Positions 3,190 through 20,757 of a stretch of 56,403 bases of DNA are shown one piece after another. The stretch's first letter is position 1, and every line of letters begins with the position of its first letter. Source of the DNA: Klenkia terrae (GTDB lineage Bacteria; Actinomycetota; Actinomycetes; Mycobacteriales; Geodermatophilaceae); NCBI RefSeq assembly GCF_900491935.1, contig NZ_UEXK01000004.1, positions 2,189,892-2,246,294 of the forward strand, written 5' to 3'. Both the position numbers and the translations under genes were made by a program. Below the pieces are notes generated by a model that was not told the origin of the DNA, did not search any database, and saw only the letters and a list, made by a program, of their open reading frames with translations.

Positions 3190-3286
3190 CCGGCCATGTC
3201 CCAGGGGCCCCGTGCGCGCGCAGCGCGTGCGGGGGAGTCGACAAGGCCGGTTGTCCCCAGAGCTGTGCACAGGTTGGGGAGACCGG

Positions 3287-3301
3287 ATCCCCATGTCGAC
3301 C
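3287..3301 (+). repeat. Origin-region repeat, copy 1
   Basis: ATCCCCATGTCGACC, identical to the copy at 3434-3448; the last 13 nt recur in the gyrB-gyrA spacer (13786-13798). The first half resembles a degenerate DnaA box (ATCCCCA against ATCCACA) and the second half contains the GTCGAC palindrome. Confidence 0.7.
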
Positions 3302-3433
3302 GCCTCCGTACCCAGCTTCTCCCCGGGTCCGTCCCCCGGACGGGTGTGCTGGGGACGGACCCGGGGGTCCAGGCGGGAGAGAGGGTGGACCAGGGGTGGA
3401 GCGGGGCGGTCGCCGGTGGACGGGAGCCGATTC

Positions 3434-3448
3434 ATCCCCATGTCGACC
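3434..3448 (+). repeat. Origin-region repeat, copy 2
   Basis: Exact second copy of ATCCCCATGTCGACC, 147 bp downstream of copy 1 in the same spacer and orientation. Its left flank (GGAGCCGATTC) also matches the flank of a DnaA-box-like site at 20440 (GGAGTCGATTC). Confidence 0.7.
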
Positions 3449-3735
3449 CCAGGTGGACGGTCACCGGCCCACACCGTGCGAACAGGCCCCCACCGGCCCT
3501 GACCTGCGCCGACGGCCTCGGTCCCCAGTACCCACACCTGTGATGACGGTGATGAGCTATCTCTTCCCAGGAGTTCTCGAACCACACCCTGGGTGTGCAG
3601 GCCCGGTCGACGAGTCGATCCGGGGAGCAGCAGGGCAGCGGTGGGGTCGGGGAGGGGCATTCGACGGCAGCCCCTGCGGCAGGGGAGACTGACCGCCGCA
3701 GGAGAGCCGGACGACGAGCAGGGGTGGACGACGAG

Positions 3736-4878
3736 ATGAAGTTCCGGGTGGCACGCGAGGTGCTCGCCGACGCCGTGGCGTGGACGGCGCGCAGCCTGCC
3801 GCCGCGTCCGTCGGTCCCCGTCCTCGCCGGGATCCTGCTGGAGGTGCAGGGCAGCTCGCTGTCGGTCTCCGGCTTCGACTACGAGGTCTCCGCCCGCGCG
3901 GAGATCGACGTCAGCTCCACCGAGGACGGCCGTGCCCTGGTGCCCGGCCGACTGCTGGCCGAGATCACCCGGGCGCTGCCGCCGCACCCGGTGGAGGTCA
4001 TCGCGGAGGGTGCGCGGCTGGCGATCAGCTGCGGCAACGCCAAGTTCTCCCTGCCGACCCTGCCGGTGGAGGACTACCCCTCGCTGCCGTCGATGCCCTC
4101 GACCGCCGGCGTGGTGGACAGCGACGCGTTCGCCGAGGCGGTCGCCCAGGTCGCCGTCGCCGCCGGCCGCGACGACACGCTGCCGATGCTCACCGGCGTC
4201 CGGCTGGAGATCGAGGACGACCGGGTCACCCTGGCCGCCACCGACCGCTACCGCCTCGCCGTCCGCGAGTTCGCCTGGCGGCCGGAGACCTCCGGGCTGT
4301 CCGCGGCGGTGCTGGTGCCCGCCCGCACGCTGGCCGACGCCGCGAAGACGCTGACGAGTGGCCCCGAGGTCGTCCTCTCGCTGTCCTCGGGCGGGTCCGG
4401 CGAGGGCATCCTGGGCCTGTCGGGCAAGGACCGGCAGACCACGACCCGCCTGCTGGACGCCGAGTTCGTCAAGTACCGGGCGATCATGCCCAACGAGTCG
4501 GCGTCGCACGCCCTGCTGCCAGTCGGGTTGTTCACCGACGCGGCCAAGCGCGTGGCCCTGGTCGCCGAGCGCGGCACGCCGCTGCGCTGCGAGTTCACCC
4601 CCGGCCAGGTCACCCTGCGCGCGGGCGGCACCGACGACGACGGCCAGGCCGAGGAGAGCTGCGACGTCGACTTCGACGGCGACCCGCTGACCATCGGCTT
4701 CAACCCGACGTTCCTGCTCGACGGGCTGGCCGCGGTGCACACCGACCGCGCCCGGATGGACTTCACCAGCGCGCTCAAGCCCGCGGTGCTCTCCGGCCAC
4801 GAGGAGCCCGGGGAGGACGGGGTCGTCCGCCCCGGCTCCTACCGCTCCCTGATCATGCCGGTGCGGCTCCCGGGCTGA
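3736..4878 (+). CDS. dnaN: DNA polymerase III beta subunit (sliding clamp)
   Basis: 380 aa from ATG 3736 ([20 protein letters not shown]). It forms the ring-shaped processivity clamp that tethers DNA polymerase III and other DNA enzymes. Length and content fit the three-fold clamp repeat: [17 protein letters not shown] in domain 1, [14 protein letters not shown] and [12 protein letters not shown] in domain 2, and [17 protein letters not shown] leading to the C-terminal [13 protein letters not shown], the conserved peptide-binding tail. Upstream in-frame GTGs exist, but the family start MKFR decides. It sits between the candidate oriC and gnd; the spacer to gnd is 109 bp and includes a short GC hairpin. 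Confidence 0.97.
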
Positions 4879-4897
4879 CCCCGGCACCCGCCGCGCG

Positions 4898-4912
4898 GCC
4901 CCGGACCGGGGC
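4898..4912 (+). terminator. Short GC hairpin after dnaN
   Basis: GCCCCGG A CCGGGGC, a perfect 7-bp inverted repeat with a single-base centre, 20 bp beyond the dnaN stop. No T-tract follows. It could be a weak intrinsic terminator or attenuator, or chance in GC-rich DNA. Confidence 0.3.
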
Positions 4913-4987
4913 GAGCACGATGGGCACGACGACGCCGGAGGGCAGCGCAGCCTGCTCCGGGACGACACCGACTCGAGGAGAACCGCT

Positions 4988-5911
4988 GTGCAGCTGGGCC
5001 TGATCGGACTGGGCAAGATGGGCGGCAACATGGCCGAGCGCGTACGCCGCGCCGGCCACGAGGTCGTCGGCTACGACAACGCACCCGGCAAGCGGGACGT
5101 CGACAGCCTCGAGGCGCTGGTCGGCGCCCTGCAGGCGCCGCGCGTGGTGTGGGTGATGGTGCCCTCCGGCGACCCGACCCGGCAGACGGTCTCGGCGCTC
5201 AAGGAGCTGCTCGAGGAGGGCGACGTCGTCGTCGACGGCGGCAACTCCAAGTTCACCGACGACAAGATCCACGCCGACGACCTGGCCACCAAGGGCATCG
5301 GCTACGTCGACGCCGGCGTCTCCGGCGGCGTGTGGGGCCTGGAGAACGGCTACGCGCTGATGGTCGGCGGCTCGAAGGAGGACGTCGCCAAGGTCCAGCC
5401 CGTCTTCGACGCGCTGAAGCCGCCGGCGCCGCAGGACGAGACCGGTGCCTCGGTGCCCGGTGCGGGCTTCGTGCACGCCGGCCCCGTGGGTGCCGGCCAC
5501 TTCGCCAAGATGGTCCACAACGGCATCGAGTACGCGATGATGCAGGCCTACGGCGAGGGCTACGAGCTGCTGGCCGCCGTCGACCTGGTCGAGGACGTCC
5601 CCGGCGTCATCGCCTCCTGGACCCAGGGCACCGTCATCCGCTCCTGGCTGCTGGACCTGCTGGTCCGCGCGCTGCAGGAGGACCCGGGCCTGGACGACAT
5701 CACCGGCTGGGCCGCCGACTCCGGCGAGGGCCGCTGGACCGTCGAGCAGGCGATCGAGCACTCCGTCCCGATGCCGGCGATCTCGGCGTCGCTGTTCGCC
5801 CGGTTCTCCTCCCGCCAGGACGACAGCCCGACGATGAAGGCCGTCGCCGCGCTGCGGAACCAGTTCGGTGGCCACGCGGTCAAGGCCCGCGAGGTCGAAG
5901 ACCCCGCCTGA
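4988..5911 (+). CDS. gnd: 6-phosphogluconate dehydrogenase, short decarboxylating type
   Basis: 307 aa from GTG 4988, preceded by GAGGAGAA. It oxidises and decarboxylates 6-phosphogluconate to ribulose 5-phosphate with NAD(P)+. The Rossmann motif [10 protein letters not shown] (7-16) is at the N-terminus. [11 protein letters not shown] and [21 protein letters not shown] are substrate-site segments, and [13 protein letters not shown] contains the catalytic Lys174 and Asn178. This is the roughly 300-aa bacterial form rather than the 470-aa dimeric form. Placement between dnaN and recF is common in actinobacteria outside mycobacteria. The recF start follows the stop by 13 bp, suggesting cotranscription. 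Confidence 0.95.
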
Positions 5912-5924
5912 TGGGCCCCGCCCG

Positions 5925-7133
5925 TTGTACGTGAGACATCTCCAGCTGGGGTCCTTCCGCAGCTGGGAGTCCGTCGACCTGCCGCTGACGCCGGGTCCGA
6001 CGGTCTTCGTCGGCCGCAACGGCCAGGGCAAGACCAACCTGGTCGAGGCGGTCGGCTACCTGGCGACGCTGGGCAGCCACCGGGTGTCCTCGGACAACCC
6101 GCTGGTCCGGCACGGCGCCGAGCAGGCCGTCGTCCGGGCGGCGCTGCGCAAGGACGACCGGGAGCTCCTGGTCGAGGTGGAGATCAACCCCGGCCGGGCC
6201 AACCGGGTGCGGGTCAACCGCTCCCCGTTGCCCCGCCCGCGGGAGCTCCTCGGCCTGGTCAAGACGGTGCTCTTCGCCCCCGAGGACCTCGCGCTGGTCC
6301 GCGGCGACCCGACCGAGCGCCGCCGGTTCCTCGACGACCTGCTGGTCAGCCGCACGCCGCGGCTGGCCGGCGTCCGGTCGGACTACGAGCGGGTGCTCAA
6401 GCAGCGCAACGCCCTGCTCAAGACCGCGAAGCTGGCCCGCGGCGGGGCGATCGCGACGCTGGAGGTCTGGGACGGGCACCTCGCCGACCTCGGCGGGCAG
6501 CTGCTGGCCGCCCGGCTGCAGCTGGCCGCCGACCTGGACCCGCACGTCGGCGCGGCCTACGAGGGGGTCGCCGGCGAGGGCGCCGACCGGGCCCGGCTGG
6601 GCTACACCAGCACCGTGCCGCTGGCCGGCGACGGGACGGCGTTCCTGCCCGGCCTCGGCGTGCCCAGCGCGGCCGACCTCACCGCGGCCCTGGCCCGGCG
6701 GGTGGAGGAGCGGCGCAAGGAGGAGGTCGACCGCGGCGTGACGCTGGTCGGCCCGCACCGCGACGACCTGGTGCTGCACCTGGGCCCGGCCCCGGCGAAG
6801 GGCTACGCCAGCCACGGCGAGTCCTGGTCGTTCGCGCTGGCGCTGAAGCTGGCCTGTTTCGCGCTGCTGCGCGCCGACGGCGAGGAACCGGTGCTGGTGC
6901 TCGACGACGTCTTCGCCGAGCTCGACGCCGGCCGGCGCACCGCGCTGGCCGACGTGGCGCGGACGGCCGAGCAGTGCCTGATCACGGCCGCGGTGGCCGA
7001 GGACGTCCCGGTCGCGCTGCGCGGGACACGGGTGCAGGTGGCCGACGGGACGGCGACCGTGCTGCCGCCCGACGACGCACCGGCTGCGCTCGACCTGACC
7101 GGTGCGGCGGAGGACGCTGGGTCGCATGGCTGA
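5925..7133 (+). CDS. recF: DNA replication/repair protein RecF
   Basis: 402 aa, starting at TTG 5925 so that the protein begins [19 protein letters not shown], matching the family start M-Y-V-R-x-L. A GTG two codons later is the alternative; an earlier ATG at 5911 is out of frame. RecF is an SMC-like ATPase that helps load RecA at gaps. Walker A is GRNGQGKT (30-37); the family segments [30 protein letters not shown] and the Walker [16 protein letters not shown] are present. It follows gnd by 13 bp and overlaps the DUF721 gene by 8 bp, so these are one operon. Confidence 0.95.
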
Positions 7134-7635
7134 CCAGCCCGCGCAGCGGCCGTCGCGCCCCAGCGACATCGCCCGGGCCGCGCTGGACGCCGCCCGGGCC
7201 GCCTCGGCCGCCCGGCCCCGGCCCACCCGGCGACGGGTGGCCGGCCCCCGGCGGTCCTGGAGCGGGCCGCACCCGGGCGCCGACGACCCGCAGACCCTGG
7301 GTTCGCTGGTCGACTCCCTGGTCAGCGCGGAGGACTGGAGCGAGCGCACCAAGGTGGGCTCGGTGTTCGGCCGCTGGGACGCCCTGGTAGGCGCCGACAT
7401 CGCCGCGCACTGCGCGCCGCAGTCCCTGAGCGAGGGCGAGCTGACCGTGGTCGCGGAGTCCACGGCCTGGGCCACCCAGCTGCGGATGATGGCGCCGACC
7501 ATCCTGGGCAAGCTGCACAACCAGGTGGGCGGGGACGTCGTGACCCGGTTGCGCGTTGTCGGACCGACGGCACCCAGCTGGAAGAAGGGCCCGCGGACGG
7601 TCCGGGGACGCGGTCCGCGCGACACCTACGGCTGA
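7126..7635 (+). CDS. DUF721 family (DciA-like) protein
   Basis: 169 aa from ATG 7126, overlapping the recF stop. The N-terminus is Ala/Arg/Pro-rich (1-55). The conserved DUF721 part follows: [50 protein letters not shown] and [23 protein letters not shown]721 includes DciA, the ancestral helicase loader that delivers DnaB at the origin, and is the actinobacterial Rv0004 equivalent. Position directly after recF and close to dnaA supports a role in initiation. The DciA function is inferred from the family. Confidence 0.9.
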
Positions 7636-7678
7636 CCCGGCGCCCCCGAGTCCGACCCCCACCGAGAGAGAGCAGCAG

Positions 7679-8689
7679 ATGAGCACCCCCCGCGACGGCT
7701 CCGGCGGCTTCGACGACCGACCCGAGGACCAGCGCGGCTGGTCCGAGCCCTCCCACCTCGGCGACGGCTCCACCGGCTCCGACCGGCCGGCGGACCAGCC
7801 CGCCGACCAGCCCGCCGACCGCGCGGCGGACCGCGGGTGGGAGCCGCCGGGCTGGTCGCTGCCCGACGCCGCCCCCGACCGGCCGGCGCAGCAGCCCCCC
7901 GCCCAGGCGCAGCCGCCGGCGCAGGACTGGGAGGCCACCCCGCCGCCGGCCCCGCAGCAGGGGTGGGAGTCCCACCGCGCCGAGCCGCAGCAGTGGGACG
8001 CACCGCAGACGCACGAGGCGCCCCCGCAGGAGGAGAAGCGCGGCGGGGTCCTCGGTGGCCTGTTCGGCCGCGGCCCCCGCAAGCTCTCGGAGGTGCAGCA
8101 GCAGTTCCTCCCCAAGGGCGGCGGGTCGCAGGACCTCGCGGCGTGGGGCCAGGCCTACGGCTGGACGGCGTCGGACGGCACCGGCCCCGAGGACGCCGTC
8201 CTGGTGGAGCTGACCCGGTCGGCCCCGGTGCGCCCGGCGAAGTCCGAGGTGCCCAGCAACGTGCTGCGCGGCCGGGCCGACGGGCTGGACCTGGTGGCCT
8301 TCGACATCGTGTCCCCCTACGGCCGGGGCTGGGTGGCCACCCACGCGGTGACCGCGGCACCGGTGCTGGGCCAGCTGCCCGGTTTCCGGCTGACCCCCGC
8401 CCGGTTCTGGCGGCACGGCACCGGCGGGCCGCTGCAGCTGCCCAGCGGCGACCCCGAGTTCGACACCCGCTGGGGGCTGCTGGCCGCCGAGGACTCCCCG
8501 CAGCTGCGCCGGGTGGTCGAGGACCCGGTGGTCCGGCAGGCCCTGCTCGGCTCCGACGACGGCGACGAGCTGTGGTCGGCGGTCGGCTTCGTGGCCGCGA
8601 TCCGGCCCGACGGCCACCGCCCGCTCCTCGTCGAGCACCACGCCCGCATCCTCGCCGCGGTCGGCGCGGCCCTCGGCTCGCATCGGTGA
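7679..8689 (+). CDS. Conserved protein of unknown function with disordered N-terminus
   Basis: 336 aa from ATG 7679, preceded by GAGAGAGAG. Residues 1-120 are low complexity, rich in Pro/Gln/Asp/Trp, with tandem DQPADQPAD units. The ordered part starts near KRGGVLGGLFGRGPRKLSEV. It holds aromatic-rich segments (LAAWGQAYGWTASDG, FDIVSPYGRGWVATHAV, FRLTPARFWRHG, FDTRWGLLAAED, LWSAVGFVAAIRPDG). The F-x-x-R-W-x-L-x-A-x-D pattern resembles cytoplasmic DUF3137-like domains, but I do not claim membership. No signal peptide or membrane segment is seen. Its stop overlaps the GTG of the ABC transporter, so they are likely one operon, not part of the conserved dnaA-gyrB core. Confidence 0.7.
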   Translation: MSTPRDGSGGFDDRPEDQRGWSEPSHLGDGSTGSDRPADQPADQPADRAADRGWEPPGWSLPDAAPDRPAQQPPAQAQPPAQDWEATPPPAPQQGWESHRAEPQQWDAPQTHEAPPQEEKRGGVLGGLFGRGPRKLSEVQQQFLPKGGGSQDLAAWGQAYGWTASDGTGPEDAVLVELTRSAPVRPAKSEVPSNVLRGRADGLDLVAFDIVSPYGRGWVATHAVTAAPVLGQLPGFRLTPARFWRHGTGGPLQLPSGDPEFDTRWGLLAAEDSPQLRRVVEDPVVRQALLGSDDGDELWSAVGFVAAIRPDGHRPLLVEHHARILAAVGAALGSHR

Positions 8690-10446
8690 CCGCACCCCCG
8701 GTCGGGTCGGCCGGGCTGCGCGAGCTGCTCCCGCTGCTGCGCCCGCACCGGCGGGCGCTGGTCGCGGCCGCGGCGCTGTCCCTGGTGGCCGCCGCGGCCG
8801 CCCTGGCCCAGCCGCTGCTGGTCTCCCGGGTGGTCGACGCCGTCGGCTCCGGTGCCGCGCTGCTGCCCGGGGTGGCCACGCTGGTCGTCGTCCTGGTCGC
8901 CTCGGCGGTGCTCAGCGCCGGCCAGCAGTACCTGCTGCAGCGCACCGCCGAGGGCGTCGTGCTCAGCACCCGGCGCACGCTGGCCGACCGGCTGCTGCGG
9001 CTGCCGGTGGCCGAGTACGACCGGCGGCGCACCGGTGACCTGATGAGCCGGGTGGGCTCGGACACCACGCTGCTGCGGGCCACCGTCACCAGCGGCGTCG
9101 TCGAGGTGGGCGGCTCGCTGGTGCTGGGCATCGGCGCGCTGGTCGCGATGGCGCTGGTCGACGTGTGGCTGCTGCTGGTCACGCTGGCGTCGGTCTCGAT
9201 CGGCGTGGGGACCGCCATCGCGGCGGCCCGCCGGGTGCGGGTGCTGTCCCGGCAGGCGCAGGAGCAGGTCGGCGCGATGAGCGCGGCGGTGGAGCGGGCA
9301 CTGTCCGCCGTCCGCACCATCCGGGCCAGCGGCGCCACCGGCCGCGAGGTGGTCACGGTCGGCTCGTCGGCGGAGAAGGCCTTCACCGCCGGCGTCGCGG
9401 TGGCCCGGCTGCAGGCACTCGTCGCACCGGCCACCGGCATCGCGATCCAGGGCGCGTTCCTGGCCGTGCTCGGCGTCGGCGGCTACCGGGTCGCCAGCGG
9501 CGCGATCGGCATCCCCGACCTGATCGCCTTCATCCTCTACCTCTTCCTGCTCATCCAGCCGCTGGGCCAGGTCATCCGCGCCTACACCGAGCTGCAGACC
9601 GGGCTCGGTGCGCTGGCGCGGGTGCAGGAGGTGCTCTCGCTGGACCCCGAGGACGACGACCGGCCCGCCCGCCCCGGGACGACGACCGCGCCCCGGCTGC
9701 CCGCCGCCGGTGACCCGACCCCGCTGCTGGAGCTGCGCGGGGTCGACTTCGACTACCCCGATGGCACCCGGGTGCTGCACGACGTCTCGTTCTCGGTCCC
9801 CGCCGGGACCCGGACGGCGCTGGTGGGGCCCTCGGGTGCGGGCAAGTCCACGCTGCTCGCGCTGGTCGAGGGCTTCTACCCGCTCAGCGGGGGCAGCATC
9901 CGGTGGGCCGGCACCGACGTCCGCGACCTGCCGCGCTCGGTGCTGCGGGCCCGGATGGGCTACGTCGAGCAGGAGGCCCCGGTGCTGGCCGGCACCATCC
10001 GGGAGAACCTGCTGCTGGCCGCGCCGGACACCCCCGAGGCCGCGCTGCGGCAGGTGCTCGAGGACGTCGGGCTGACCCCGGTGGTCGACCGGTCCGAGCT
10101 GGGCCTGGACGTGCTGGTCGGCGACGACGGCGTGCTGCTGTCCGGTGGTGAGCGGCAGCGGCTGGCCATCGCCCGCTCGCTGCTGGCCCGGCCGGCGCTG
10201 CTGCTGCTCGACGAGCCGACCGCGAGCCTGGACGCCCGCAACGAGACCCTGCTCCGGCAGACGCTGGAGACCGCCGCGCGGGACCGGGCGCTGCTGGTGG
10301 TCGCCCACCGGTTGTCCACGGTCCGCGACTCCGACCAGATCGTGGTGCTGGAGGGCGGCCGGGTGGTCGCCGTCGGCACGCACGACGAGCTGGTGGAGAC
10401 CGACCCGCTCTACCGCGAGCTGGCCACCGCCCAGCTGCTGGTGTGA
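8686..10446 (+). CDS. ABC exporter, fused permease and ATP-binding protein
   Basis: 586 aa from GTG 8686, overlapping the previous stop as GTGA. This is a half-transporter with an N-terminal six-helix membrane domain (about 20-310) and a C-terminal nucleotide-binding domain. Walker A is GPSGAGKST (381-389), the signature LSGGERQRL, Walker B LLLLDEPTAS and the switch VAHRLST. MsbA/MdlB-type exporters work as dimers and move lipids, peptides or drugs; the substrate cannot be told. An acidic/Pro linker (DPEDDDRPARP) joins the domains. It sits between the DUF721 and gyrB genes, outside the usual core order, and converges on the SDR gene with a 10-bp gap. Confidence 0.93.
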   Translation: MTAPPVGSAGLRELLPLLRPHRRALVAAAALSLVAAAAALAQPLLVSRVVDAVGSGAALLPGVATLVVVLVASAVLSAGQQYLLQRTAEGVVLSTRRTLADRLLRLPVAEYDRRRTGDLMSRVGSDTTLLRATVTSGVVEVGGSLVLGIGALVAMALVDVWLLLVTLASVSIGVGTAIAAARRVRVLSRQAQEQVGAMSAAVERALSAVRTIRASGATGREVVTVGSSAEKAFTAGVAVARLQALVAPATGIAIQGAFLAVLGVGGYRVASGAIGIPDLIAFILYLFLLIQPLGQVIRAYTELQTGLGALARVQEVLSLDPEDDDRPARPGTTTAPRLPAAGDPTPLLELRGVDFDYPDGTRVLHDVSFSVPAGTRTALVGPSGAGKSTLLALVEGFYPLSGGSIRWAGTDVRDLPRSVLRARMGYVEQEAPVLAGTIRENLLLAAPDTPEAALRQVLEDVGLTPVVDRSELGLDVLVGDDGVLLSGGERQRLAIARSLLARPALLLLDEPTASLDARNETLLRQTLETAARDRALLVVAHRLSTVRDSDQIVVLEGGRVVAVGTHDELVETDPLYRELATAQLLV

Positions 10447-10456
10447 GGCCGCGGGG

Positions 10457-11353
10457 TCAGCCGGCCAGCGCGACCCGGACGGCGTCCTCGAAGCCCAGCC
10501 GCGGGGGCGAGCCGATCACCTCGGCCAGGTCGTCCTCGCCGGCGACCACGGTGTTGGCCAGCGACTCCACCAGCGAGCGGGCCAGGTCGCGGGACACCGG
10601 CGTGAGCAGGTCGATGCCCACCGCGGCCAGCGCCGCGCTGCGGATCGGCACCGGCAGGAAGCGGCGGCGGCCGAGGCCGGCGACCGCGGCGTACCGCTGC
10701 ACCAGCTCGGCGTAGGTCATCACGTCGGGACCGGCGACGTCGAAGGCCCGGCTGACCTCCGCCGGCAGGGTCGCGCACCCGACCAGCGCGGTGACCACGT
10801 CGACCAGCGCCACGGGCTGCACCCGGGTGCGCACCCAGTCCGGGGCGGGCAGCACCGGCAGCCGCTCGGTGACGTGCCGCAGCATCTCGAAGCTGGCCGA
10901 CCCGGCGCCGACCACGATGGCCGCACGGAGCACCGCCGTCGGCACTCCGGAGGACAGCAGCAGCGCGCCGACCTCCTCGCGGGAGCGCAGGTGGTCCGAC
11001 AGCGGCTCGTCCACCGGGCGGGGTCCGCCGAGGTAGACCAGCCGGCCGACCCCGGCCCGGCGGGCGGCGCGGGCCAGGCCGCGGGCGTGCGCCCGGTCGG
11101 CGGCGGCGAAGCCCGGACCGGCGTCCAGGGCGTGGACCAGCCAGTACGCGGTGTCGACCCCGGTGCAGGCCCGGGTCAGCGCGTCGTCGTCCGCGGCGTC
11201 GCCGACGACCACCCGCACGTCGGGCAGCCACGGCCGGTCGGCCAGGCGGTCGGCGTCCCGGGTCAGGACGGCGACCTCGTGGCCGGCGGCGAGCAGGGCG
11301 GGGACGAGGGCTCCGCCGACGTGGCCGGACGCGCCGGTGACCAGGCTGTGCAC
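10457..11353 (-). CDS. NAD(P)-binding SDR/NmrA-like epimerase family protein (paralogue 1)
   Basis: 298 aa from GTG 11353 (VHSLVTGASGHVGGALVPAL). The start is a choice: the frame continues upstream to 11431 through the parS-like palindrome, but the nucleotide-binding strand should begin near here. GASGHVGG is the glycine-rich dinucleotide motif. DTAYWLVHALD and RLVYLGGPRP are typical of the atypical SDR group with DUF2867-like relatives. No Tyr-x-x-x-Lys catalytic pair is evident, so it may be a redox sensor or ligand-binding rather than a dehydrogenase. It is clearly paralogous to the protein at 20758-21705 (shared YxLVHxLD, YLGGxxx, HLRSRxxVxxLL, VLRAxIVVGxG). The two lie either side of gyrB-gyrA. 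Confidence 0.85.
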   Translation of the reverse strand: MHSLVTGASGHVGGALVPALLAAGHEVAVLTRDADRLADRPWLPDVRVVVGDAADDDALTRACTGVDTAYWLVHALDAGPGFAAADRAHARGLARAARRAGVGRLVYLGGPRPVDEPLSDHLRSREEVGALLLSSGVPTAVLRAAIVVGAGSASFEMLRHVTERLPVLPAPDWVRTRVQPVALVDVVTALVGCATLPAEVSRAFDVAGPDVMTYAELVQRYAAVAGLGRRRFLPVPIRSAALAAVGIDLLTPVSRDLARSLVESLANTVVAGEDDLAEVIGSPPRLGFEDAVRVALAG

Positions 11354-11366
11354 CGCTGCAGTGTGC

Positions 11367-11382
11367 GGTTCCACGTGGAACC
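11367..11382. promoter_or_regulatory. parS-like centromere site 1
   Basis: GGTTCCACGTGGAACC, a perfect 16-bp palindrome. The bacterial parS consensus recognised by ParB is close to TGTTYCACGTGRAACA, so the 14-bp core GTTCCACGTGGAAC fits. It lies about 8 kb from the candidate oriC, just upstream of (or within the extreme 5' end of) the SDR gene. parA/parB are not in the window; they usually lie beyond yidD/yidC, past the left edge. An identical core occurs at 40506. Confidence 0.75.
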
Positions 11383-11548
11383 GCGCCCCCGAGCGGCGGT
11401 GGCCCGAGGCACTCACCGGCGACCACCCCACGGGGCCGAGGAACTGAGTTTCGTCGGCCGGGGCAACACCGGTGGTGGTCGAGGTCCTCCTGGTGCGTCA
11501 GGGGTGACCTCAGGGCGTGGACGGCGCCTCCTGGGTCGATGGACCCGG

Positions 11549-13701
<2,153 letters not shown>

Positions 13702-13844
13702 CGGGGCGATCCGGGCTGATCCGGGTCCCGGTGGACGGTGTGGTAACCCACCGTCCACCCGCCCGCCACTCGGACGTCGTCCCAACCCCATGTCGACCTG
13801 GGGTTTTGTCCACCGCTGTGCACTGACCTGTGGAGAACTGAACC
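13702..13844. promoter_or_regulatory. gyrB-gyrA spacer with DnaA-box-like site
   Basis: 143 bp. TTGTCCACC (13806-13814) is one mismatch from TTGTCCACA; CCTGTGGAG lies just before the gyrA GTG. CCCCATGTCGACC (13786-13798) is the same 13-mer found twice in the dnaA-dnaN spacer. It may carry a gyrA promoter, but no convincing -35/-10 pair is visible. A link between DnaA and gyrase expression would be an inference. Confidence 0.45.
13786..13798 (+). repeat. Origin-region repeat, copy 3
   Basis: CCCCATGTCGACC, identical to the last 13 nt of the repeats at 3287 and 3434. It is followed by TGGGG, giving a short interrupted inverted repeat CCCCA...TGGGG around GTCGAC. Confidence 0.65.
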
Positions 13845-16331
13845 GTGACGGAGACCCCGAGCCGCGACCGCATCGAACCGGTCGACCTGCAGGAGGAGAT
13901 GCAGCGCAGCTACATCGACTACGCGATGAGCGTGATCGTGGGCCGCGCGCTCCCCGAGGTGCGCGACGGCCTCAAGCCGGTGCACCGCCGCGTGCTGTTC
14001 GCGATGTACGACCAGAACTTCCGGCCCGACCGCGGGTACGTGAAGTGCGCGCGACCGGTCGCGGAGGTCATGGGCAACTACCACCCCCACGGCGACACCG
14101 CGATCTACGACGCCCTGGTCCGGCTGGCCCAGCCCTGGTCGATGCGCTACCCGCTGATCGACGGGCAGGGCAACTTCGGCTCGCCGGGCAACGACCCCGC
14201 GGCCGCCATGCGCTACACCGAGTGCCGCCTCACGCCGCTGGCCATGGAGATGCTGGCCGGCATCAACGAGGAGACCGTCGACTACCAGGGCAACTACGAC
14301 GGGCGCACCGAGGAGCCCGTCGTCCTCCCCGCCCGGGTGCCGAACCTGCTGATCAACGGCTCGGCCGGCATCGCCGTCGGCATGGCCACCAACATGCCCC
14401 CGCACAACCTGCGCGAGGTGGCCGAGGCCGTCTACTGGATGCTCGACCACCCCGAGGCCCCCGCCGAGGAGGCCCTCACCGCGTGCATGGAGCGGGTCAA
14501 GGGCCCGGACTTCCCGACCCACGGCCTGATCGTCGGCCGCGACGGCATCGAGGACGCCTACCGGACCGGCCGCGGCTCGGTGCGCATGCGCGCCGTCGTC
14601 GCCGTGGAGGAGGACTCCCGCGGGCGGGTGCAGCTGGTGGTCACCGAGCTGCCCTACCAGGTCAACCCGGACAACCTGGCCGAGAACATCGCCGAGCAGG
14701 TCAAGGACGGCCGGCTGCAGGGCATCTCCGAGATCGCCGACGAGTCCTCCGACCGCGTCGGCCGCCGGCTGGTCATCACCCTGCGCCGCGACGCCGTGGC
14801 CAAGGTGGTGCTGAACAACCTCTACAAGCACACCCAGCTGCAGACCTCCTTCGGCTGCAACATGCTCTCCATCGTCGACGGCGTGCCCCGCACGCTGCGC
14901 CTGGACGAGCTGGTCCGGTACTGGGTGATCCACCAGATCGAGGTCATCCAGCGGCGCACCCGCTACCGCCTGCGCAAGGCCGAGGAGCGCGCGCACATCC
15001 TGCGCGGCTACGGCAAGGCCCTCGACCAGCTCGACGAGGTCATCGCCCTCATCCGGGCCAGTGCCTCCGCCGACGCCGCCCGCACCGGGCTGATGGAGCT
15101 GCTGGAGGTCGACGACATCCAGGCGCTGGCCATCCTGGACCTGCAGCTGCGCCGGCTGGCCGCTCTCGAGCGCCAGCGGATCATCGACGAGCTGGCCGAG
15201 ATCGAGGCCACGATCGCCGACCTGCAGGCGATCCTGGCCGACCCCGAGCGGCAGCGGCGGATCGTCCGCGACGAGCTCAAGGAGATCGTCGACCGGTTCG
15301 GCGACGACCGGCGCACCCAGTTCGTCGCGCACGACGGCGACGTCTCCATGGAGGACCTCATCGCCGAGGAGCAGGTGGTCGTCACGATCACCCGCACCGG
15401 CTACGCCAAGCGCACCAAGGCCGACCTGTACCGGTCCCAGCGCCGCGGCGGCAAGGGCGTCATGGGCGCGACGCTCAAGCAGGACGACCTGATCCAGCAG
15501 TTCTTCGTGGGGTCGACCCACGACTGGATCCTGTTCTTCACCAACAAGGGCCGGGTCTACCGGGCCAAGGCCTACGAGCTGCCCGAGGCCGCCCGCACCG
15601 CCCGCGGGGCGCACGTGGCCAACATCTTGGCGTTCCAGCCCGACGAGAAGATCGCCCAGGTCATCCAGATCAAGGACTACGCGGTCGCCCCGTACCTGGT
15701 GCTGGCCACGGCGAACGGCCAGGTCAAGAAGACCCGGTTGACCGACTTCGATTCCCCGCGCAGCGGCGGCGTCATCGCGATCAACCTGCGCGACGGCGAC
15801 GAGCTGGTCGGTGCGGCGCTGATCGACCCCGAGCAGAACCTGCTGCTGGTCACCCGCAAGGCCATGAGCATCTGCTTCAAGGCCGACGACGCCCAGCTGC
15901 GCCCCATGGGCCGGGCGACCGAGGGCGTGCGCGGCATCTCGCTCACCGACGACGACCGGCTGCTGTCGATGATCGTGGTGACCGAGGGCGTCGACGTCCT
16001 GGTGGCGACCGAGGGCGGGTACGCCAAGCGCACCGGCATCGAGAACTACCCGGAGCAGAACCGCGGCGGCAAGGGCGTGCTCACCGCCGACCCGAAGTCC
16101 CGCAAGGGCGTGCTGGTCGGTGCGCTGTCGGTCGTGCTCGGCGACGAGCTGTACGCCATCACCTCCACCGGCGGGGTCATCCGCACCCCGGTCAACGGCG
16201 TCCGGCACAACAAGGACCGGGCGACCATGGGCGTCAAGCTGATGAACCTGCCCGAGGACGTCTCGATCGTGGCCATCGCGCGGACGACTGACGACGAGGA
16301 GGTCGAGGTCGCCGACCCGACCTCGCTCTGA
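13845..16331 (+). CDS. gyrA: DNA gyrase subunit A
   Basis: 828 aa from GTG 13845 ([20 protein letters not shown]). It is the DNA breakage-reunion subunit. The active-site Tyr is Tyr124 in [10 protein letters not shown]. The quinolone-resistance region reads [20 protein letters not shown], with Thr where E. coli has Ser83 and M. tuberculosis has Ala90, and the Asp87-equivalent kept. The C-terminal beta-pinwheel carries the GyrA box QRRGGKGV plus repeated blades ([42 protein letters not shown]), which supports gyrase rather than topoisomerase IV. It ends with an acidic tail and is followed by a terminator hairpin. Confidence 0.97.
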
Positions 16332-16339
16332 CCCGGCAA

Positions 16340-16372
16340 GCCGTGCACCTTGCTCGACCGGGGGTGCACGGC
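16340..16372 (+). terminator. Terminator hairpin after gyrA
   Basis: A perfect 10-bp stem, GCCGTGCACC (16340-16349) with GGTGCACGGC (16363-16372) and a 13-nt loop, 9 bp beyond the gyrA stop. There is no T-run, as is common for actinobacterial terminators. Confidence 0.6.
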
Positions 16373-16558
16373 GTGCCGGTCGGTCAGTCGGGGCGGGATA
16401 GGCACCCCGGCGCCTAGGCTGGGGCGAATGCCGTCACCCGGTGCGGGTCGCGAGGTCCACCCGGGACGGCTGAGCGACCACCGATGTGCGGTCGCCACCC
16501 CACCGGGTGGCACCGGGCGCGACGGGGGCGGGAGACCGGCCCCGGGACGGAGAGCGGG

Positions 16559-17470
16559 ATGAGCGACCGGACCCAGTCCTCGGTGCGGACCGAGGACTCC
16601 TCGGCGGCAGCCGACCCCGAGACCGCGGCGATCACGCCCGACGAGCCGGCCCGGTCCTCGTCGGCGCCGGCCGCCGGCGCGAAGGGCGCCCCGGCCACCG
16701 CGCCGGGCTGGGGCGGTGCGACCCCGAGCAAGCAGAACCCGGCCAAGGGCGCCGGCGGGCAGAAGCCCGCCCAGCAGGCCCCGCCGGCCGGTCAGGCCCC
16801 GGCCGGGCCCACGCAGCCGGCCGGCAAGCCGGCCCAGCAGTCCGGCCGACCGGCCGGCAACGGCCAGCCCGCCGGTGCACGTCCGGCCGGCCAGCGCCCG
16901 GCCGCGGCCGCCGGTGCCACCGTGGGTGCGGCCCGCCAGGGTGCTCCGCAGACCGGGGCCCGCCCGGCCAACCGGGCCGCCGCCGGTGCGCCCCGGCCCG
17001 CGACCGACCGGCCCCCGTCGGTCGTCGCCCGCGCGGCCGAGGGTCGTGGCCCGGAGTCCGCCGAGGGCGAGCGGCCCAGCGGCAAGGTGCGCGGCTCCGG
17101 TCGCGGACCCCGCCGGGCCCGCCTGCAGCTGCGGCACATCGACACCTGGTCGGCGCTGAAGATCTCGCTGGTGCTGGCCATCGCGCTGTTCTTCGTGTGG
17201 ATGGTCGCCGTCGGCGTCCTCTACGGGGTGCTCAACGGCCTCGGCGTGTTCACCACCGTCAACGACCTGATCGGCCAGCTCGGCTCCAGCTCCGGGGACG
17301 CCGGCCCGACCGACGTCATCACCCCCGGCATCGTGTTCGGCGGCGCGGCGGTCATCGGTGCGGTGAACATCGTGCTGTTCACCGCGCTGTGCACCGTGGG
17401 CACGTTCGTCTACAACCTGTGCGCGGACCTGGTCGGCGGCCTCGAGGTCACCCTGTCCGAGCGCGACTAG
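16559..17470 (+). CDS. DUF3566 membrane protein with long disordered N-terminus
   Basis: 303 aa from ATG 16559. Residues 1-185 are low complexity, rich in Ala/Pro/Gly/Gln. From about 190 comes the conserved part: RRARLQLRHIDTWSALKISL, a membrane segment (LVLAIALFFVWMVAVGVLYGVL), VFTTVNDLIGQL, then a second hydrophobic segment (FGGAAVIGAVNIVLFTALCTVGTFVYNLCADLVGGLEVTL). This is the DUF3566 layout and the Rv0007 position immediately after gyrA. Function is not established; such proteins are inner-membrane proteins with a cytoplasmic disordered arm. It precedes tRNA-Ile by 59 bp. Confidence 0.9.
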   Translation: MSDRTQSSVRTEDSSAAADPETAAITPDEPARSSSAPAAGAKGAPATAPGWGGATPSKQNPAKGAGGQKPAQQAPPAGQAPAGPTQPAGKPAQQSGRPAGNGQPAGARPAGQRPAAAAGATVGAARQGAPQTGARPANRAAAGAPRPATDRPPSVVARAAEGRGPESAEGERPSGKVRGSGRGPRRARLQLRHIDTWSALKISLVLAIALFFVWMVAVGVLYGVLNGLGVFTTVNDLIGQLGSSSGDAGPTDVITPGIVFGGAAVIGAVNIVLFTALCTVGTFVYNLCADLVGGLEVTLSERD

Positions 17471-17510
17471 CCGGCCGGACCCCGCGCGGCGGCGCCGCAC
17501 GAGGTCCAGG

Positions 17511-17516
17511 TATGGT
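17511..17516 (+). promoter_or_regulatory. Candidate -10 element for tRNA-Ile
   Basis: TATGGT, 13 bp upstream of the tRNA 5' end and so well placed for a -10 with a very short leader. The -35 region is GC-rich without a recognisable hexamer. Confidence 0.35.
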
Positions 17517-17529
17517 TTCCGAGGTTCAC

Positions 17530-17603
17530 GGGCCTGTAGCTCAGACGGTTAGAGCGCATCCCTGATAAGGATGAGGCCGGAGGTTCAAGTCCTCCCAGGC
17601 CCA
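17530..17603 (+). tRNA. ileT: tRNA-Ile (anticodon GAT)
   Basis: 74 nt cloverleaf. Acceptor stem GGGCCTG pairs with CAGGCCC; TAGCTC begins the D arm. The anticodon stem CATCC/GGATG encloses loop CTGATAA with anticodon GAT at 17564-17566. The T arm is GGAGG-TTCAAGT-CCTCC. Discriminator A is followed by CC but not an encoded CCA. It is the Rv equivalent ileT, next to gyrA as in mycobacteria. Confidence 0.97.
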
Positions 17604-17638
17604 CCGTGCACCGCTCGACGGCGAGGAGGTCGGCACCC

Positions 17639-17779
17639 GTGCTGAAGAAGGTCGCCGTGGCGGCACTGGCCGCAGGGGCACTGCTGGCCCTGCGCAAGCG
17701 GTCGGCAGCCCAGATCGACGAGGACCTGTGGGCCGAGGCCGCCCGCAGCCCCGACGCCGTCCGCACGACCCAGCGCTAG
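17639..17779 (+). CDS. DLW-39 family small protein
   Basis: 46 aa from GTG 17639: a basic start (VLKK), a short hydrophobic helix (VAVAALAAGALLAL), then RKRSAAQIDEDLWAEAARSP. The Asp-Leu-Trp followed by Ala-Glu-Ala is the hallmark of the DLW-39 family, tiny actinobacterial proteins encoded near gyrA and tRNA-Ile. GAGGAGG lies 11 bp upstream, a very strong ribosome site that supports translation. Probably a single-pass membrane peptide; function unknown. It lies between two tRNA genes on the same strand. Confidence 0.85.
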   Translation: MLKKVAVAALAAGALLALRKRSAAQIDEDLWAEAARSPDAVRTTQR

Positions 17780-17805
17780 ACCCGGTGGTGCCCGCACCGC
17801 CTCCC

Positions 17806-17878
17806 GGGGACGTAGCTCAATTGGTAGAGCACCGCCTTTGCAAGGCGGGGGTCAGGGGTTCGATTCCCCTCGTCTCCA
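17806..17878 (+). tRNA. alaT: tRNA-Ala (anticodon TGC)
   Basis: 73 nt. Acceptor GGGGACG pairs with CGTCTCC. The anticodon stem CCGCC/GGCGG encloses loop TTTGCAA with anticodon TGC at 17839-17841. The T arm is AGGGG-TTCGATT-CCCCT. Discriminator A; CCA is not encoded. It immediately precedes a lipoprotein gene with an unclear start. Confidence 0.97.
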
Positions 17879-17880
17879 CA

Positions 17881-18432
17881 GCGTCCCGGTGGTCCGCCGT
17901 CCCGGTCCTGGCCCTGCTGCTGGCCGGTTGCGGCACCTCGACCACGGACGAGCCGGCGGCGTCGTCGAGCGCACCGGCCAGCACGGCCGCGACCAGCGCC
18001 CCTGCCCCGCCGACCAGCAGCGCAGCGGTGCCCGCCGAGCCGGTGACCACCAAGCAGGACTGCCCCTACCTCGACACCGCCTTCGTGCAGGACACGGTGG
18101 GCCAGCAGACGCCCACCGTCACCACCACCGGGGTCCCCGGCGGCCCGCCGCCGGGCTGCACGTTCGCCAAGCCGAACGGGGAGCCGGCGCTGACCGTCGA
18201 GATCACCCAAGCCGCGGACGGGGTCGCTGCGCGCACCGCCGCCGTCGAGCGGGTGGCCGGCATCGGCGGCACGGCGGTCACCGACATCGCCGACGGCGGG
18301 GGGATCGCCGTCGGCACCGGCCAGACCGTGCTCGCCGTCGCCGACGGCACGCTCGTCGTCGTGGTGACGGTCAACCAGGAATCCAGCCTGCAGGCGCGCG
18401 AGATCACCCAGACCGTCGTCGCCGCGGTCTGA
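17881..18432 (+). CDS. DUF2020-like lipoprotein, start unresolved
   Basis: Lipobox LLLAGC (Cys codon 17929-17931) follows a hydrophobic stretch (VPVLALLLAG). Next is a Ser/Thr/Ala/Pro linker, then CPYLDTAFVQDTVGQ...PPGCTFAKPNGEPALTVEI...QTVLAVADGTLVVVVTVN, a secreted DUF2020-like domain with a probable disulphide pair. The problem is the start: between the tRNA-Ala 3' end and the lipobox the frame has no ATG, GTG or TTG. A GTG at 17889 is out of frame, yet loss of one base just after it would give VVR-VPVLALLLAGC, an ideal signal peptide. A base error, a true 5' mutation or a rare start (CTG) are all possible. Coordinates give the open frame after the tRNA. Confidence 0.65.
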   Translation, partial: ASRWSAVPVLALLLAGCGTSTTDEPAASSSAPASTAATSAPAPPTSSAAVPAEPVTTKQDCPYLDTAFVQDTVGQQTPTVTTTGVPGGPPPGCTFAKPNGEPALTVEITQAADGVAARTAAVERVAGIGGTAVTDIADGGGIAVGTGQTVLAVADGTLVVVVTVNQESSLQAREITQTVVAAV

Positions 18433-18475
18433 GGCGGGTCGGCAGCCCATCGCCGCAGGTGGGACGATGGGGGGC

Positions 18476-19009
18476 GTGACCGAATCGACTCCTGCGCGGC
18501 GCGCAGTCCTGCACACCAACCACGGCGACATCACCGTGGACCTGTTCCCGGACCACGCCCCCAAGACCGTCGCCAACTTCGCCGAGCTCGCCGAGGGCAG
18601 CCGCGAGTGGGTGGACCCCCGTACCCGGGCGAAGACCACCGACAAGCTCTACGACGGCACGATCTTCCACCGGGTCATCGACGGCTTCATGATCCAGGGC
18701 GGGGACCCCCTCGGCCAGGGCACCGGCGGCCCCGGCTACCGCTTCGGCGACGAGTTCCACCCCGACCTGCAGTTCTCCAAGCCCTACCTGCTGGCCATGG
18801 CCAACGCCGGGCCGGGCACCAACGGCTCGCAGTTCTTCATCACCACCACCAACACCCCGCACCTGAACAACAAGCACACGATCTTCGGCGAGGTGGCCGA
18901 CGACGCCTCCCGCCAGGTCGTCGACGCCATCGGCAAGGTCCCCACCGCCCGCGGTGACAAGCCCCTCGAGGACGTCGTGATCACCTCGGTCGAGGTGCAG
19001 CGCAGCTGA
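18476..19009 (+). CDS. ppiA: Peptidyl-prolyl cis-trans isomerase, cyclophilin type
   Basis: 177 aa from GTG 18476 (VTESTPARRAVLHTNHGDI); an ATG three codons upstream at 18467 is an alternative. Cytoplasmic cyclophilin that speeds proline isomerisation. Active-site segments are visible: FHRVIDGFMIQGGD (catalytic Arg, Phe, Met and Gln), the AMANAGPGTNGSQFFIT core, and the NNKHTIFGEV His region. It has an insertion after LAEGSREW common to actinobacterial PpiA. It is the Rv0009 counterpart; its stop overlaps the proposed CTG start of the rhomboid gene. Confidence 0.95.
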   Translation: MTESTPARRAVLHTNHGDITVDLFPDHAPKTVANFAELAEGSREWVDPRTRAKTTDKLYDGTIFHRVIDGFMIQGGDPLGQGTGGPGYRFGDEFHPDLQFSKPYLLAMANAGPGTNGSQFFITTTNTPHLNNKHTIFGEVADDASRQVVDAIGKVPTARGDKPLEDVVITSVEVQRS

Positions 19010-19881
19010 GCACCACCGACGGACCCGGGGGTGCGGGCGCCCAGCCCGCGCCCCCGGCCACCACCTGCTACCGGCACCCCGACCGGCCGACCCGGATCTC
19101 CTGCGTCCGCTGCGGCCGGCCGATCTGCCCGGAGTGCATGAACCCCGCCTCGGTCGGCTTCCAGTGCCCCGAGGAGCTCGCCGACGCCCGACGCACCGTG
19201 CGGACCCCCAAGCGCACCACCGGCGTGCGGGTCGCCGGCAAGCGCTGGGGCCCGGTCACCCTCGTGCTGGTGGCCATCAACGTCGCGGTCGGCATCGCCA
19301 CCGCGGTCGCCGCGCTGGTGTCCGGCGGCAACCCGGTCAACTCGTTCAACTCACCGCTGACCAGCGAGCTGCTCAGCGCCCCCGTCCTGGTCGACCAGGG
19401 CGAGTGGTGGCGCGTGGTGACCAGCGCCTTCACCCACGCCAGCATCCTGCACCTGGCCCTGAACATGCTCGCCCTGCTGCTGTTCGGCTCCGAGCTCGAG
19501 CGCCTGCTGGGCAAGGGCCGCTACCTGACCGTCTACCTGGTCTCCGCCCTCGGTGGCGCCGCTGCCCTGCAGCTGTTCGGTGCCTACCTGGGCGGGGTCG
19601 TCGGTGCCTCCGGTGCCATCTACGGCCTGCTCGGTGCCTTCGGCGTCGTGCTGCTGCGGCAGAAGCAGGACCTGCGCGGCCTGCTCACCCTGCTGGCGAT
19701 CAACCTGGTGATCAGCTTCCTGCCCGGCGTCTCGCTGCTGGGGCACCTGGGTGGCCTGGTCGCCGGTGCGGTGACCGCCGTCGTCCTGCTGTGGGCCGGA
19801 CAACGCCGGGTGCTGGCCGTCGCCGGGGTCGCCGCCGTGGTGGCCGTGCTGCTCGTGCTGACCTTCGGCGGCCTGCGCTAG
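19006..19881 (+). CDS. Rhomboid family intramembrane serine protease with N-terminal Zn-ribbon
   Basis: 291 aa if it starts at CTG 19006, which overlaps the ppiA TGA as CTGA in the manner of ATGA/GTGA couplings. The in-frame ATG at 19138 would cut a cysteine-rich N-terminus (TCYRHPDRPTRISCVRCGRP, then ICPECM) that is conserved in actinobacterial rhomboids, so I prefer the upstream start. About six membrane helices follow. The catalytic dyad is Ser202 in GASGAIYG and His247 in GHLGG; FTHASILHLALNM is the family's His/Asn oxyanion segment. Substrates unknown. Confidence 0.9.
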   Translation: MSTTDGPGGAGAQPAPPATTCYRHPDRPTRISCVRCGRPICPECMNPASVGFQCPEELADARRTVRTPKRTTGVRVAGKRWGPVTLVLVAINVAVGIATAVAALVSGGNPVNSFNSPLTSELLSAPVLVDQGEWWRVVTSAFTHASILHLALNMLALLLFGSELERLLGKGRYLTVYLVSALGGAAALQLFGAYLGGVVGASGAIYGLLGAFGVVLLRQKQDLRGLLTLLAINLVISFLPGVSLLGHLGGLVAGAVTAVVLLWAGQRRVLAVAGVAAVVAVLLVLTFGGLR

Positions 19882-19891
19882 ACCTGCCGCG

Positions 19892-20290
19892 CTACACCGG
19901 TCGGTGCCCCAGGAGCTGGGCGCCGACCTGCTCCGGGTCGGTCCCCAGGTCCCGGCGGCCGAGCACCAGCAGCACCGCGTCGTCGCCGGTGTCCTCCAGC
20001 TCGAGCGTGGTGCTGCGCATCCCGAGCCGTCGGCCGGTGCGCACCCGGGCCCGCAACCGCTCCCGGGGGATGACCGTGCGCCCGCCCAGGGTGGCGACGA
20101 CGACCTGCGCCTCGTCGGCCAGCAGGCGCGGCCTCAGCACCAGGTCCCGCACGACGACGGCGACCAGCAGCAGCGTCGCCGCGCCGAGCAGCACCCGGCC
20201 CGGGGTGTCCACCAGGAGCACGCCGGCCCCCAGGACGACGGCCACCGCGGCGGCCACGAACGTCTCGCCGGGGCGGGTCGACCAGTGCAC
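19892..20290 (-). CDS. Bacterial PH domain protein (Rv0010c-like)
   Basis: 132 aa from GTG 20290 (VHWSTRPGETF), chosen because GGAGGA (20301-20306 on the minus strand) lies 10 bp upstream; the frame itself stays open further upstream. Two membrane-spanning segments (VAAAVAVVLGAGVLLVDTPG, VLLGAATLLLVAVVVRDLVL) precede a PH-like beta domain (EAQVVVATLGGRTVIPRERL, TTLELEDTGDDAVLLVLGRR, DLGTDPEQVGAQLL). It matches Rv0010c in sequence style and position between ppiA and crgA. Function unknown. It runs opposite to the rhomboid gene. Confidence 0.8.
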   Translation of the reverse strand: MHWSTRPGETFVAAAVAVVLGAGVLLVDTPGRVLLGAATLLLVAVVVRDLVLRPRLLADEAQVVVATLGGRTVIPRERLRARVRTGRRLGMRSTTLELEDTGDDAVLLVLGRRDLGTDPEQVGAQLLGHRPV

Positions 20291-20757
20291 CGGGCCAGCT
20301 TCCTCCACACCGTCCACCTGGTTGTCCACAGGGCGGGGTGTCGACACCGGGACGCGCCGTCCGACCTCGGCGTTCGTGCTCCCGGCCACCGTCCGGACAC
20401 GCCCGGTGACCGCCCCCGGGACGGGGTGGTCACGGTCGCGGAGTCGATTCGTCCACACCTGTGTGCACAGGTGGGGACAGAAGAACAGGGATGTAGTTAC
20501 GCCGGTGCGCCTGGCGTCCCACCCGTCACAGCCGGGGCGGAACCGCAGGTCAGCAGCCGGTCGACCGGTGCGCTCCCTCCACACTCGGTGGACAAACCTG
20601 GGGGCGGTCGGTCACCGCCGTTGTGGATCAGGTCGTCGTCCTGTGCACACGTCGGGGACGGACCGGGCGGCCCGCAGTGGTCGACATCTCGACACCGACC
20701 GGACCGGTTCGTCGCACTCGGGCTGCGGGGTGGCCCGCGAACCCGGACGCTGGACGG
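20291..20757. promoter_or_regulatory. 467-bp spacer with DnaA-box cluster
   Basis: No gene seen. Contains the only perfect TTGTCCACA noted in the window's spacers (20322-20330), plus one-mismatch TCGTCCACA (20449-20457) and GGTGGACAA on the opposite strand (20587-20595), TGTGGATCA (20622-20630; reverse complement is one mismatch from TTATCCACA), and a CTGTCCCCA variant (20472-20480, opposite strand). An ACCTGTG...CACAGGT imperfect palindrome surrounds 20464. GGTCGACAT (20679-20687) is the reverse complement of the core of the dnaA-dnaN repeats. It also holds the divergent promoters of the PH and SDR genes. Confidence 0.55.

Follow-up and report, generated by a model that had tools for sequence, protein, structure and literature searches.

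The origin region and the spacers compared

The window, by which is meant the whole 56,403-nucleotide stretch of DNA analysed (G000:C4:2189892-2246294), comes from around the replication origin in a genome whose nearest named GyrB relatives are Klenkia and which is treated as one of that genus, and the element in question is a 13-mer, CCCCATGTCGACC, present three times in it and each time in a spacer. The gene content is dnaA, dnaN, gyrB, gyrA, tRNA-Ile and tRNA-Ala, a rhomboid-like gene, a PH-domain gene and crgA; DnaN, the PH domain, CrgA and an NmrA-like protein were checked with Pfam, and the names of the other genes are presumptive, from sequence and synteny. Two copies (3289 and 3436, within 15-mers at 3287 and 3434) are between dnaA and dnaN and the third (13786) between gyrB and gyrA, just as a preliminary description of this DNA had it. 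That description also pointed to a related word, GGTCGACAT, at 20679 in the spacer 20291-20757, which is there, and to a pair of 18-mers identical at 15 of 18 positions, which hold up with the first starting at 3423 rather than 3424 and the second at 20440. The dnaA-dnaN spacer contains a single 9-mer within one mismatch of a strict DnaA box, and so the case for its being oriC, the replication origin, comes from synteny, degenerate boxes and a conserved block. Table 1 gives the features.

For comparison 82 dnaA-dnaN spacers were assembled, and removal of those with identical last 400 bases left 71: 57 from Geodermatophilaceae and 14 from Rhodococcus, Mycobacterium and Pseudonocardia. The 57 family spacers are that of the window, 38 reached via a GyrB search, 5 that complete a genus and 13 fetched by a match to the composite described below. 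A locus yielded a spacer where it had both the dnaA end and the dnaN start, the exceptions being L038, L042, L043 and L063, retained with the dnaA end missing. L235, L237 and L239 duplicate origins already in the set and were counted once, and L245 had no readable origin. Outside the family, 24 further dnaA-dnaN loci (L153-L176) were inspected.

Table 1. Features of the origin region, in window coordinates
Feature	Position	Strand	Basis
dnaA-dnaN spacer, presumed oriC	3190-3735	+	Between dnaA (stop ~3189) and dnaN (3736-4878, Pfam DNA_pol3_beta)
DnaA-box triple, TTGTCCCCA..CTGTGCACAG..TTGGGGA	3251-3280	+	TTGTCCCCA exact; the 9-mer in 53/57 family spacers
Composite, copy 1: ATCCCCA, T, GTCGAC(C)	3287-3301	+	In 9/9 Klenkia spacers
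Copy 2, the core composite: GCCGA on the left, ATCCCCA as box core, then GTCGAC (3442-3447)	3426-3447	+	Family alignment
CTGACCTGC element, between composite and unwinding block	3499-3507	+	60 copies in 47/57 family spacers, 0.8 expected
CCCAGTACCCACACC boxes then GTGATGACGGTGATGAG, putative unwinding or DnaA-trio-like block	3524-3556	+	Family alignment; by eye, resembles by position CTACTACGA-type blocks of other families
13-mer in gyrB-gyrA spacer, weak member	13786-13798	+	Exact in 2/8 Klenkia spacers
DnaA-box-like stretch before gyrA, TTGTCCACC..TGTGCACTGACCTGTGGAGA	13806-13836	+	Box core then CTGTGYA in 37/62 usable family spacers
Second DnaA-box array	20291-20757		Between PH-domain gene (19892-20290, minus) and NmrA/epimerase gene (Pfam)
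GGAGTCGATTCGTCCACACCTGTGTGCACAGGTGGGGACA, left array site, GTCGA-N3-GTCCAC in register with the oriC core	20440-20479	+	GTCGA[CT]-N2-RTCCMC in 26/31 arrays
GCAGGTCAG, reversed CTGACCTGC element	20545-20553	+	CAGGTCA in 28/31 arrays
GGTCGACATCTCGAC	20679-20693		Present in all 4 Klenkia arrays examined, as GGTCGACTTCTCGAC in L011; in none of the other genera aligned

A composite of DnaA-box core and GTCGAC

Judged by alignment, the 13-mer represents in Klenkia an origin element peculiar to the crown genera of Geodermatophilaceae, a family of soil and rock bacteria. The element consists of a DnaA-box core, TCC[A/C]C[A/G], one further base and the palindrome GTCGAC. At the core site, that of copy 2, GTCGAC is invariant in 57 of 57 distinct family spacers, with all six of its bases equally fixed, as for a dimer site, and the 44 spacers chosen without the composite pattern all retain it. 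The T-C-C-.-C of the box is as constant (57/57), the bases between box and palindrome vary, and the strict composite stands at the core in 53 of the 57; six more distinct crown origins beyond these have it too (L148, L149, L150, L236, L238 and L240). The homologous site is mostly TTGTCCACGTGTCGAC, ATGTCCACGTGTCGAC or CTGTCCACGTGTCGAC in Blastococcus, Geodermatophilus and Modestobacter, copy 2 aligning to sequences of the type TTGTCCACGTGTCGACA(A)CAGG in other genera, and these homologous sites support the earlier idea that the motif combines a DnaA box, in degenerate form, with the palindrome GTCGAC. A left half-site, GTCGA, is 16 base pairs (bp) before GTCGAC and exact in 44/57 spacers (44/48 of the non-Klenkia ones); the left half of the composite is TTGTCCACG, ATGTCCACG or CTGTCCACG in most non-Klenkia cores and degenerate in Klenkia copies, e.g., GGATCCCCA. 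Altogether the spacers contain TGTCGAC 149 times where 15.7 are expected.

Forty-seven spacers have GTCGAC 97 bp ahead of the GTGATGA in the putative unwinding block, one has it 96 bp ahead and nine, all Klenkia, 98. The distance from the dnaA stop to GTCGAC is anything from 217 to 804 bp (n = 53), and that from the block to dnaN from 174 to 346 bp (n = 57). Given this fixed spacing, element and block form one rigid unit, in which the composite starts about ten helical turns from the block (105 bp in most spacers). Location, invariance, fixed spacing and order, and recurrence at three loci are matters of direct observation. Within oriC itself the composite is often not alone. Reckoned as TGTCGAC relative to GTGATGA, a second one is at about -223 in 4 Modestobacter spacers and between -245 and -278 in 9/9 Klenkia spacers, GTCCACATGTCGAC being found in 4 of 7 Modestobacter spacers at a position comparable to copy 1, and it is at -55, as CCAACATGTCGAC or CCCACATGTCGAC, in eight spacers (seven named Geodermatophilus, one Blastococcus). 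The commonest offset from TCC[AC]C to GTCGAC is 7 bp at all three loci: 73 instances in oriC, 26 in the array near crgA (tied with +29) and 8 upstream of dnaB.

The spacers have other short repeated words as well. Shortly before the putative unwinding block there is a TGACCTGC(G) element in many dnaA-dnaN spacers across the order (e.g., L155, L156, L160 and L249), and its reverse, GCAGGTCA, is in the crgA arrays and some dnaB arrays. GCAGGTCAG by itself has 141 copies in the Klenkia genome and is consequently meaningful only in context. Repeats like CGGTCACCG flank copy 2 in Klenkia (~3400-3475) and resemble MtrA half-sites; there are 58 copies of CGGTCACCG in 34/57 family spacers, with 3.7 expected.

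How special is the 13-mer?

The window would be expected to contain 0.0055 exact copies (both strands, third-order Markov) and contains three, a P of ~3e-8 that is post hoc, the word having been picked after it was seen. With up to two mismatches allowed there is nothing special: 8 matches in the window against 4.47 in shuffles, a number that 6 of 100 reached. The whole 4.8 Mb Klenkia genome has four exact copies where ~0.47 are expected, three in the origin-side spacers and the fourth far away at C4:3487875, inside long open frames. A genome-wide count with up to one mismatch, of the kind that the preliminary description had advised, came to 26 dispersed places where the reversed control had 13, and so it is only the exact or composite form that is linked to the origin; the one-mismatch word as a genome-wide regulon was rejected, its places being scattered near background. 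The 13-mer is in the dnaA-dnaN spacer of 9/9 Klenkia genomes, and the exact copies are neither numerous without origin bias nor absent from relatives: across the nine there are 20 places (reversed control, 2), of which 16 are dnaA-dnaN, 2 gyrB-gyrA and 2 in long open frames elsewhere. Each genome has two dnaA-dnaN sites, the second with one change in G004 and G007.

The proposed tie to the gyrB-gyrA spacer proved looser, with an exact 13-mer in just two of eight Klenkia spacers; of the other six, four have CCCCTTGTCGACC and one CCCGTTGTCGACC, i.e., one or two mismatches, and one has none. In the family at large GGTTGACC is found in 7/62 gyrB-gyrA spacers, several times at the exact place of the 13-mer.

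Arrays near crgA and upstream of dnaB

DnaA-box clusters outside oriC are known in B. subtilis and Streptomyces. The spacer 20291-20757 is such a cluster, with several boxes (five within one mismatch in 600 bp, where random stretches of the window have 0.23), non-coding and conserved in 31 aligned family loci. The 31 arrays were picked for having TGTA[GA][TC]TAC and two or more boxes, out of 70 loci of which many stop before this point, so that their conservation is in part selection; two of them, L047 and L048, are near-identical and each enters the count. The link with oriC that had been proposed for this spacer stands: both are DnaA-box arrays, with GTCGA-N3-RTCCMC and YCCMCR-N-GTCGAC in common. 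The likeness of the two 18-mers arises from the left array site, which keeps the same register as the left part of the core in oriC. A right site, GTCGAC-N-TGTGGA, is in 25/31 arrays, and GGTCGACAT at 20679 is seen in Klenkia alone and is no homologue of the shared sites. In 24 non-Klenkia loci the end of crgA is within ~225 bp of the array stretch and three loci stop short; in four Klenkia loci 1.7-1.8 kb intervene, occupied at 20758-22505 of the window by an NmrA-like gene and one more reading frame.

A third array lies upstream of dnaB, in L177 with rplI at its other end. The composite is in 8 of 16 family dnaB-upstream stretches, six of those eight having been fetched for having it. Outside the family, in 450 bp upstream of dnaB (L212-L234), at least three DnaA boxes within one mismatch are found in 20/23 stretches and at least one in 23/23, which suggests that DnaA may control the gene for the replicative helicase in those genomes. 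A search for more arrays by way of 15 exact DnaA boxes of the window's own genome (2 in the window, 13 in 11 fetched stretches) yielded none with five boxes; the densest of the fetched stretches were L193, with three boxes in ~150 bp, and L195, with a pair.

Phylogenetic range

The composite pattern RTCCMCRTGTCGAC is in 104/112 family genomes (95/96 of those of good quality), the reversed control giving 16 matches in 15 genomes. It is also scattered in 88/172 genomes outside the family, the reversed control understating the background, and for that reason presence in a genome is weak evidence, and place and spacing carry the argument. Extension of the composite to the whole order was rejected, the matches of those 88 being scattered and none of the 24 outside-family dnaA-dnaN loci having it. 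Nor is TGTCGAC in any of the eight readable dnaA-dnaN spacers of the basal genera g6, g7 and g8, in which the GATGA block is present. Absence from these eight and from the 24 makes it most likely, on the distribution of the motif, that the element arose on the branch to the crown genera. There are a few irregular cases: L246 and L248 have GTCGAC at a different spacing, L158 and L159 of family f5 have TTGTCGACA or ATGTCGACA at other spacing, and the composite matches of g8 are on contigs other than that of dnaN. In G074, which has the same core as L030 (Goekera), the pattern match is elsewhere, oriC reading CTCCACTGGTCGACC.

What reads GTCGAC?

We lean, tentatively and at a little short of an even chance, to GTCGAC being bound by a dyad-symmetric partner beside DnaA. 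Such a putative DNA-binding protein would adjoin DnaA on the neighbouring box and might either help or block it there, and a single signal would then govern the firing of oriC along with those regions near crgA and dnaB to which DnaA would be bound. We infer that the protein is other than DnaA, that the two bind jointly and that this has a regulatory sense. The dedicated origin-binding factor imagined in the preliminary description is a hypothesis in keeping with the dyad-symmetric conservation. The fuller proposal, that the crown Geodermatophilaceae gained an origin-binding protein specific for GTCGAC, which works together with DnaA at oriC and the crgA array and, in some genera, upstream of dnaB, is offered with more reserve, as a possibility that falls somewhat short of being probable.

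Several things weigh against a partner. TTGTCGACA is one letter off a DnaA box, and DnaA alone could suffice. The 57 spacers are from one family and non-independent, and 13 of them were fetched by composite match. With the core copy masked, the 7-bp offset loses its top rank in the oriC spacers (16 instances, random placement giving 2.9 with a maximum of 9 in 300). The sites of the crgA arrays are less constant (left 26/31, right 25/31), with Klenkia lacking the right one, and upstream of dnaB the composite is in only 2/14 unselected regions and 0/9 Klenkia. To these can be added the scatter outside the family noted above.

Could DnaA itself be the reader? Low-affinity DnaA sites and inverted box pairs are known, and TTGTCGACA, being beside a box and one change from the actinobacterial DnaA box TTGTCCACA, would be such a site, and TTGTCCACGTGTCGACAA a head-to-head pair of one strong and one weak box for ordered assembly beside the unwinding region. 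We regard this as a substantial possibility, if a less persuasive one than a partner. TTGTCGAC has 57 copies with 1.7 expected; TTGTCGACA is in 38/57 family spacers and in 0/14 of those from Rhodococcus, Mycobacterium and Pseudonocardia; and GTCGAC keeps company with DnaA boxes. Against this reading, the element differs from low-affinity sites in its invariant CG centre and dyad-symmetric conservation, the consensus GTGGAC or GTCCAC replaces the core GTCGAC in 0/57, and the A of the adjacent box has become C in 9/9 Klenkia, a change never met with in the A of GTCGAC. Klenkia has, moreover, lost the TT..A flanks and kept GTCGAC. The DnaA protein also bears on this. Crown-family DnaA has an altered helix-turn-helix, the basal genera without the element having IGQIF, IGKQF or IGKHF, but L255, from another family, has IGASF without the composite, as other members of that family are without it, and the coincidence amounts to a single branch. 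Co-evolution of this part of DnaA with the element is, with one branch and counter-examples, suggestive. The C-terminus of DnaA (window ~2797-3186; L010-L071 and L235-L258) has family-specific helix-turn-helix changes, with the basal genera intermediate.

A methylation mark that controls access of DnaA, in the way of GATC and SeqA in E. coli, would account for a fixed six-base palindrome with more than one copy in many origin spacers, but the palindrome also abounds in other parts of the genome (L187, e.g., has 11 in 2.4 kb) and the single methylase family searched for, Pfam N6_N4_Mtase (PF01555), is in 11/38 family genomes rather than universal. We regard this reading as improbable. More improbable again is that there is no separate element, GTCGAC simply being carried along in a generally conserved origin: the core does have 58 invariant columns, many of them parts of DnaA boxes, yet GTCGAC is among its longest invariant runs, and the element, which basal genera with a GATGA block lack, recurs in one order and spacing at the non-homologous places -55, about -223 to -278, the crgA array and dnaB upstream. 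Last and least credible is an RNA or transcription signal, whether hairpin, terminator or promoter, an idea that concerns at least the gyrB-gyrA copy, flanked as it is by AACCCCA and TGGGGTT: this seven-pair stem can be seen in the window and L072 and is absent from the other six Klenkia spacers, a pattern scan of 13690-13860 found nothing terminator- or promoter-like, such as a G+C-rich stem with a T run, folding at the three copies is no better than in shuffles (z -0.37, 0.02 and 0.69), and the idea was rejected.

Relation to known systems

The Bacillus subtilis oriC has the Spo0A box TG[TA]CGAA, at which the regulator inhibits DnaA binding (PMC4285127). The family element is like it in being a short TGTCGA-type site in oriC and unlike it in that the seventh base is C, not A, in 57/57 and that a full palindrome follows one base after the DnaA-box core. 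Spo0A would not be expected in Actinobacteria. The sites of other oriC regulators also differ from GTCGAC: AdpA (TGGCSNGWWY), SeqA (GATC) and, for Mycobacterium tuberculosis oriC, MtrA boxes that are GTCACAGCG-like repeats (PMC4285127); MtrA is also reported at oriC of Streptomyces venezuelae (PMC5487470). The resemblance to MtrA boxes is that of an actinobacterial oriC site for a second protein, in Geodermatophilaceae a putative one, between DnaA boxes; the 13-mer and GTCGAC differ from GTCACAGCG, and the GTCAC repeats beside copy 2 are separate. It is CGGTCACCG, near the composite, that is the better MtrA-like candidate. E. coli has DnaA-box clusters outside oriC in datA and DARS. The arrays at 20291-20757 and upstream of dnaB resemble them as non-coding clusters of DnaA boxes, here close to the origin, and differ in that they share with oriC the extra GTCGAC composite and GCAGGTCA. 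After the CCACA boxes comes a block rich in trinucleotides, at a set distance from the composite, that may be compared with the DnaA-trio of the basal unwinding system (PMC8287927), from which it differs in that GATGACGAGGATGAG, by eye, fits the published NAN pattern only from the other side and is then too far from the next box.

Among the matches listed in a search of the open-licence literature, with few subscription journals, no paper had by its title a GTCGAC element of oriC or the origins of Geodermatophilaceae as its subject. What the element offers is an exact candidate site for a binding protein: in every crown-family origin examined the same six bases stand one base beyond a DnaA-box core and at a set distance from the putative unwinding region, and they recur at other DnaA arrays. 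With it comes a handle for finding the binder and for origin control in actinobacteria outside Mycobacterium and Streptomyces. The branch of its appearance lets one ask how new origin control arises. If the proposal is true, the start of replication, the supply of helicase and cell division would be coupled by one lineage-specific signal, and a further actinobacterial oriC regulator would stand beside MtrA, IciA and AdpA.

Other observations

At 120-190 of the window a long G-run stands where a peptidase-like reading frame seems to break off, and misassembly or rearrangement is possible. ARAGORN called a tmRNA overlapping tRNA-Ala (17788-18570) and a tRNA-Glu inside dnaA (1650-1734), neither supported by Rfam. 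An endonuclease-like, intein-like insertion is seen by eye near GyrA residue 125 in L027, L030, L044 and L070, and the Blastococcus-type DnaB at L177:6715-9405 has an intein with a LAGLIDADG domain (Pfam).

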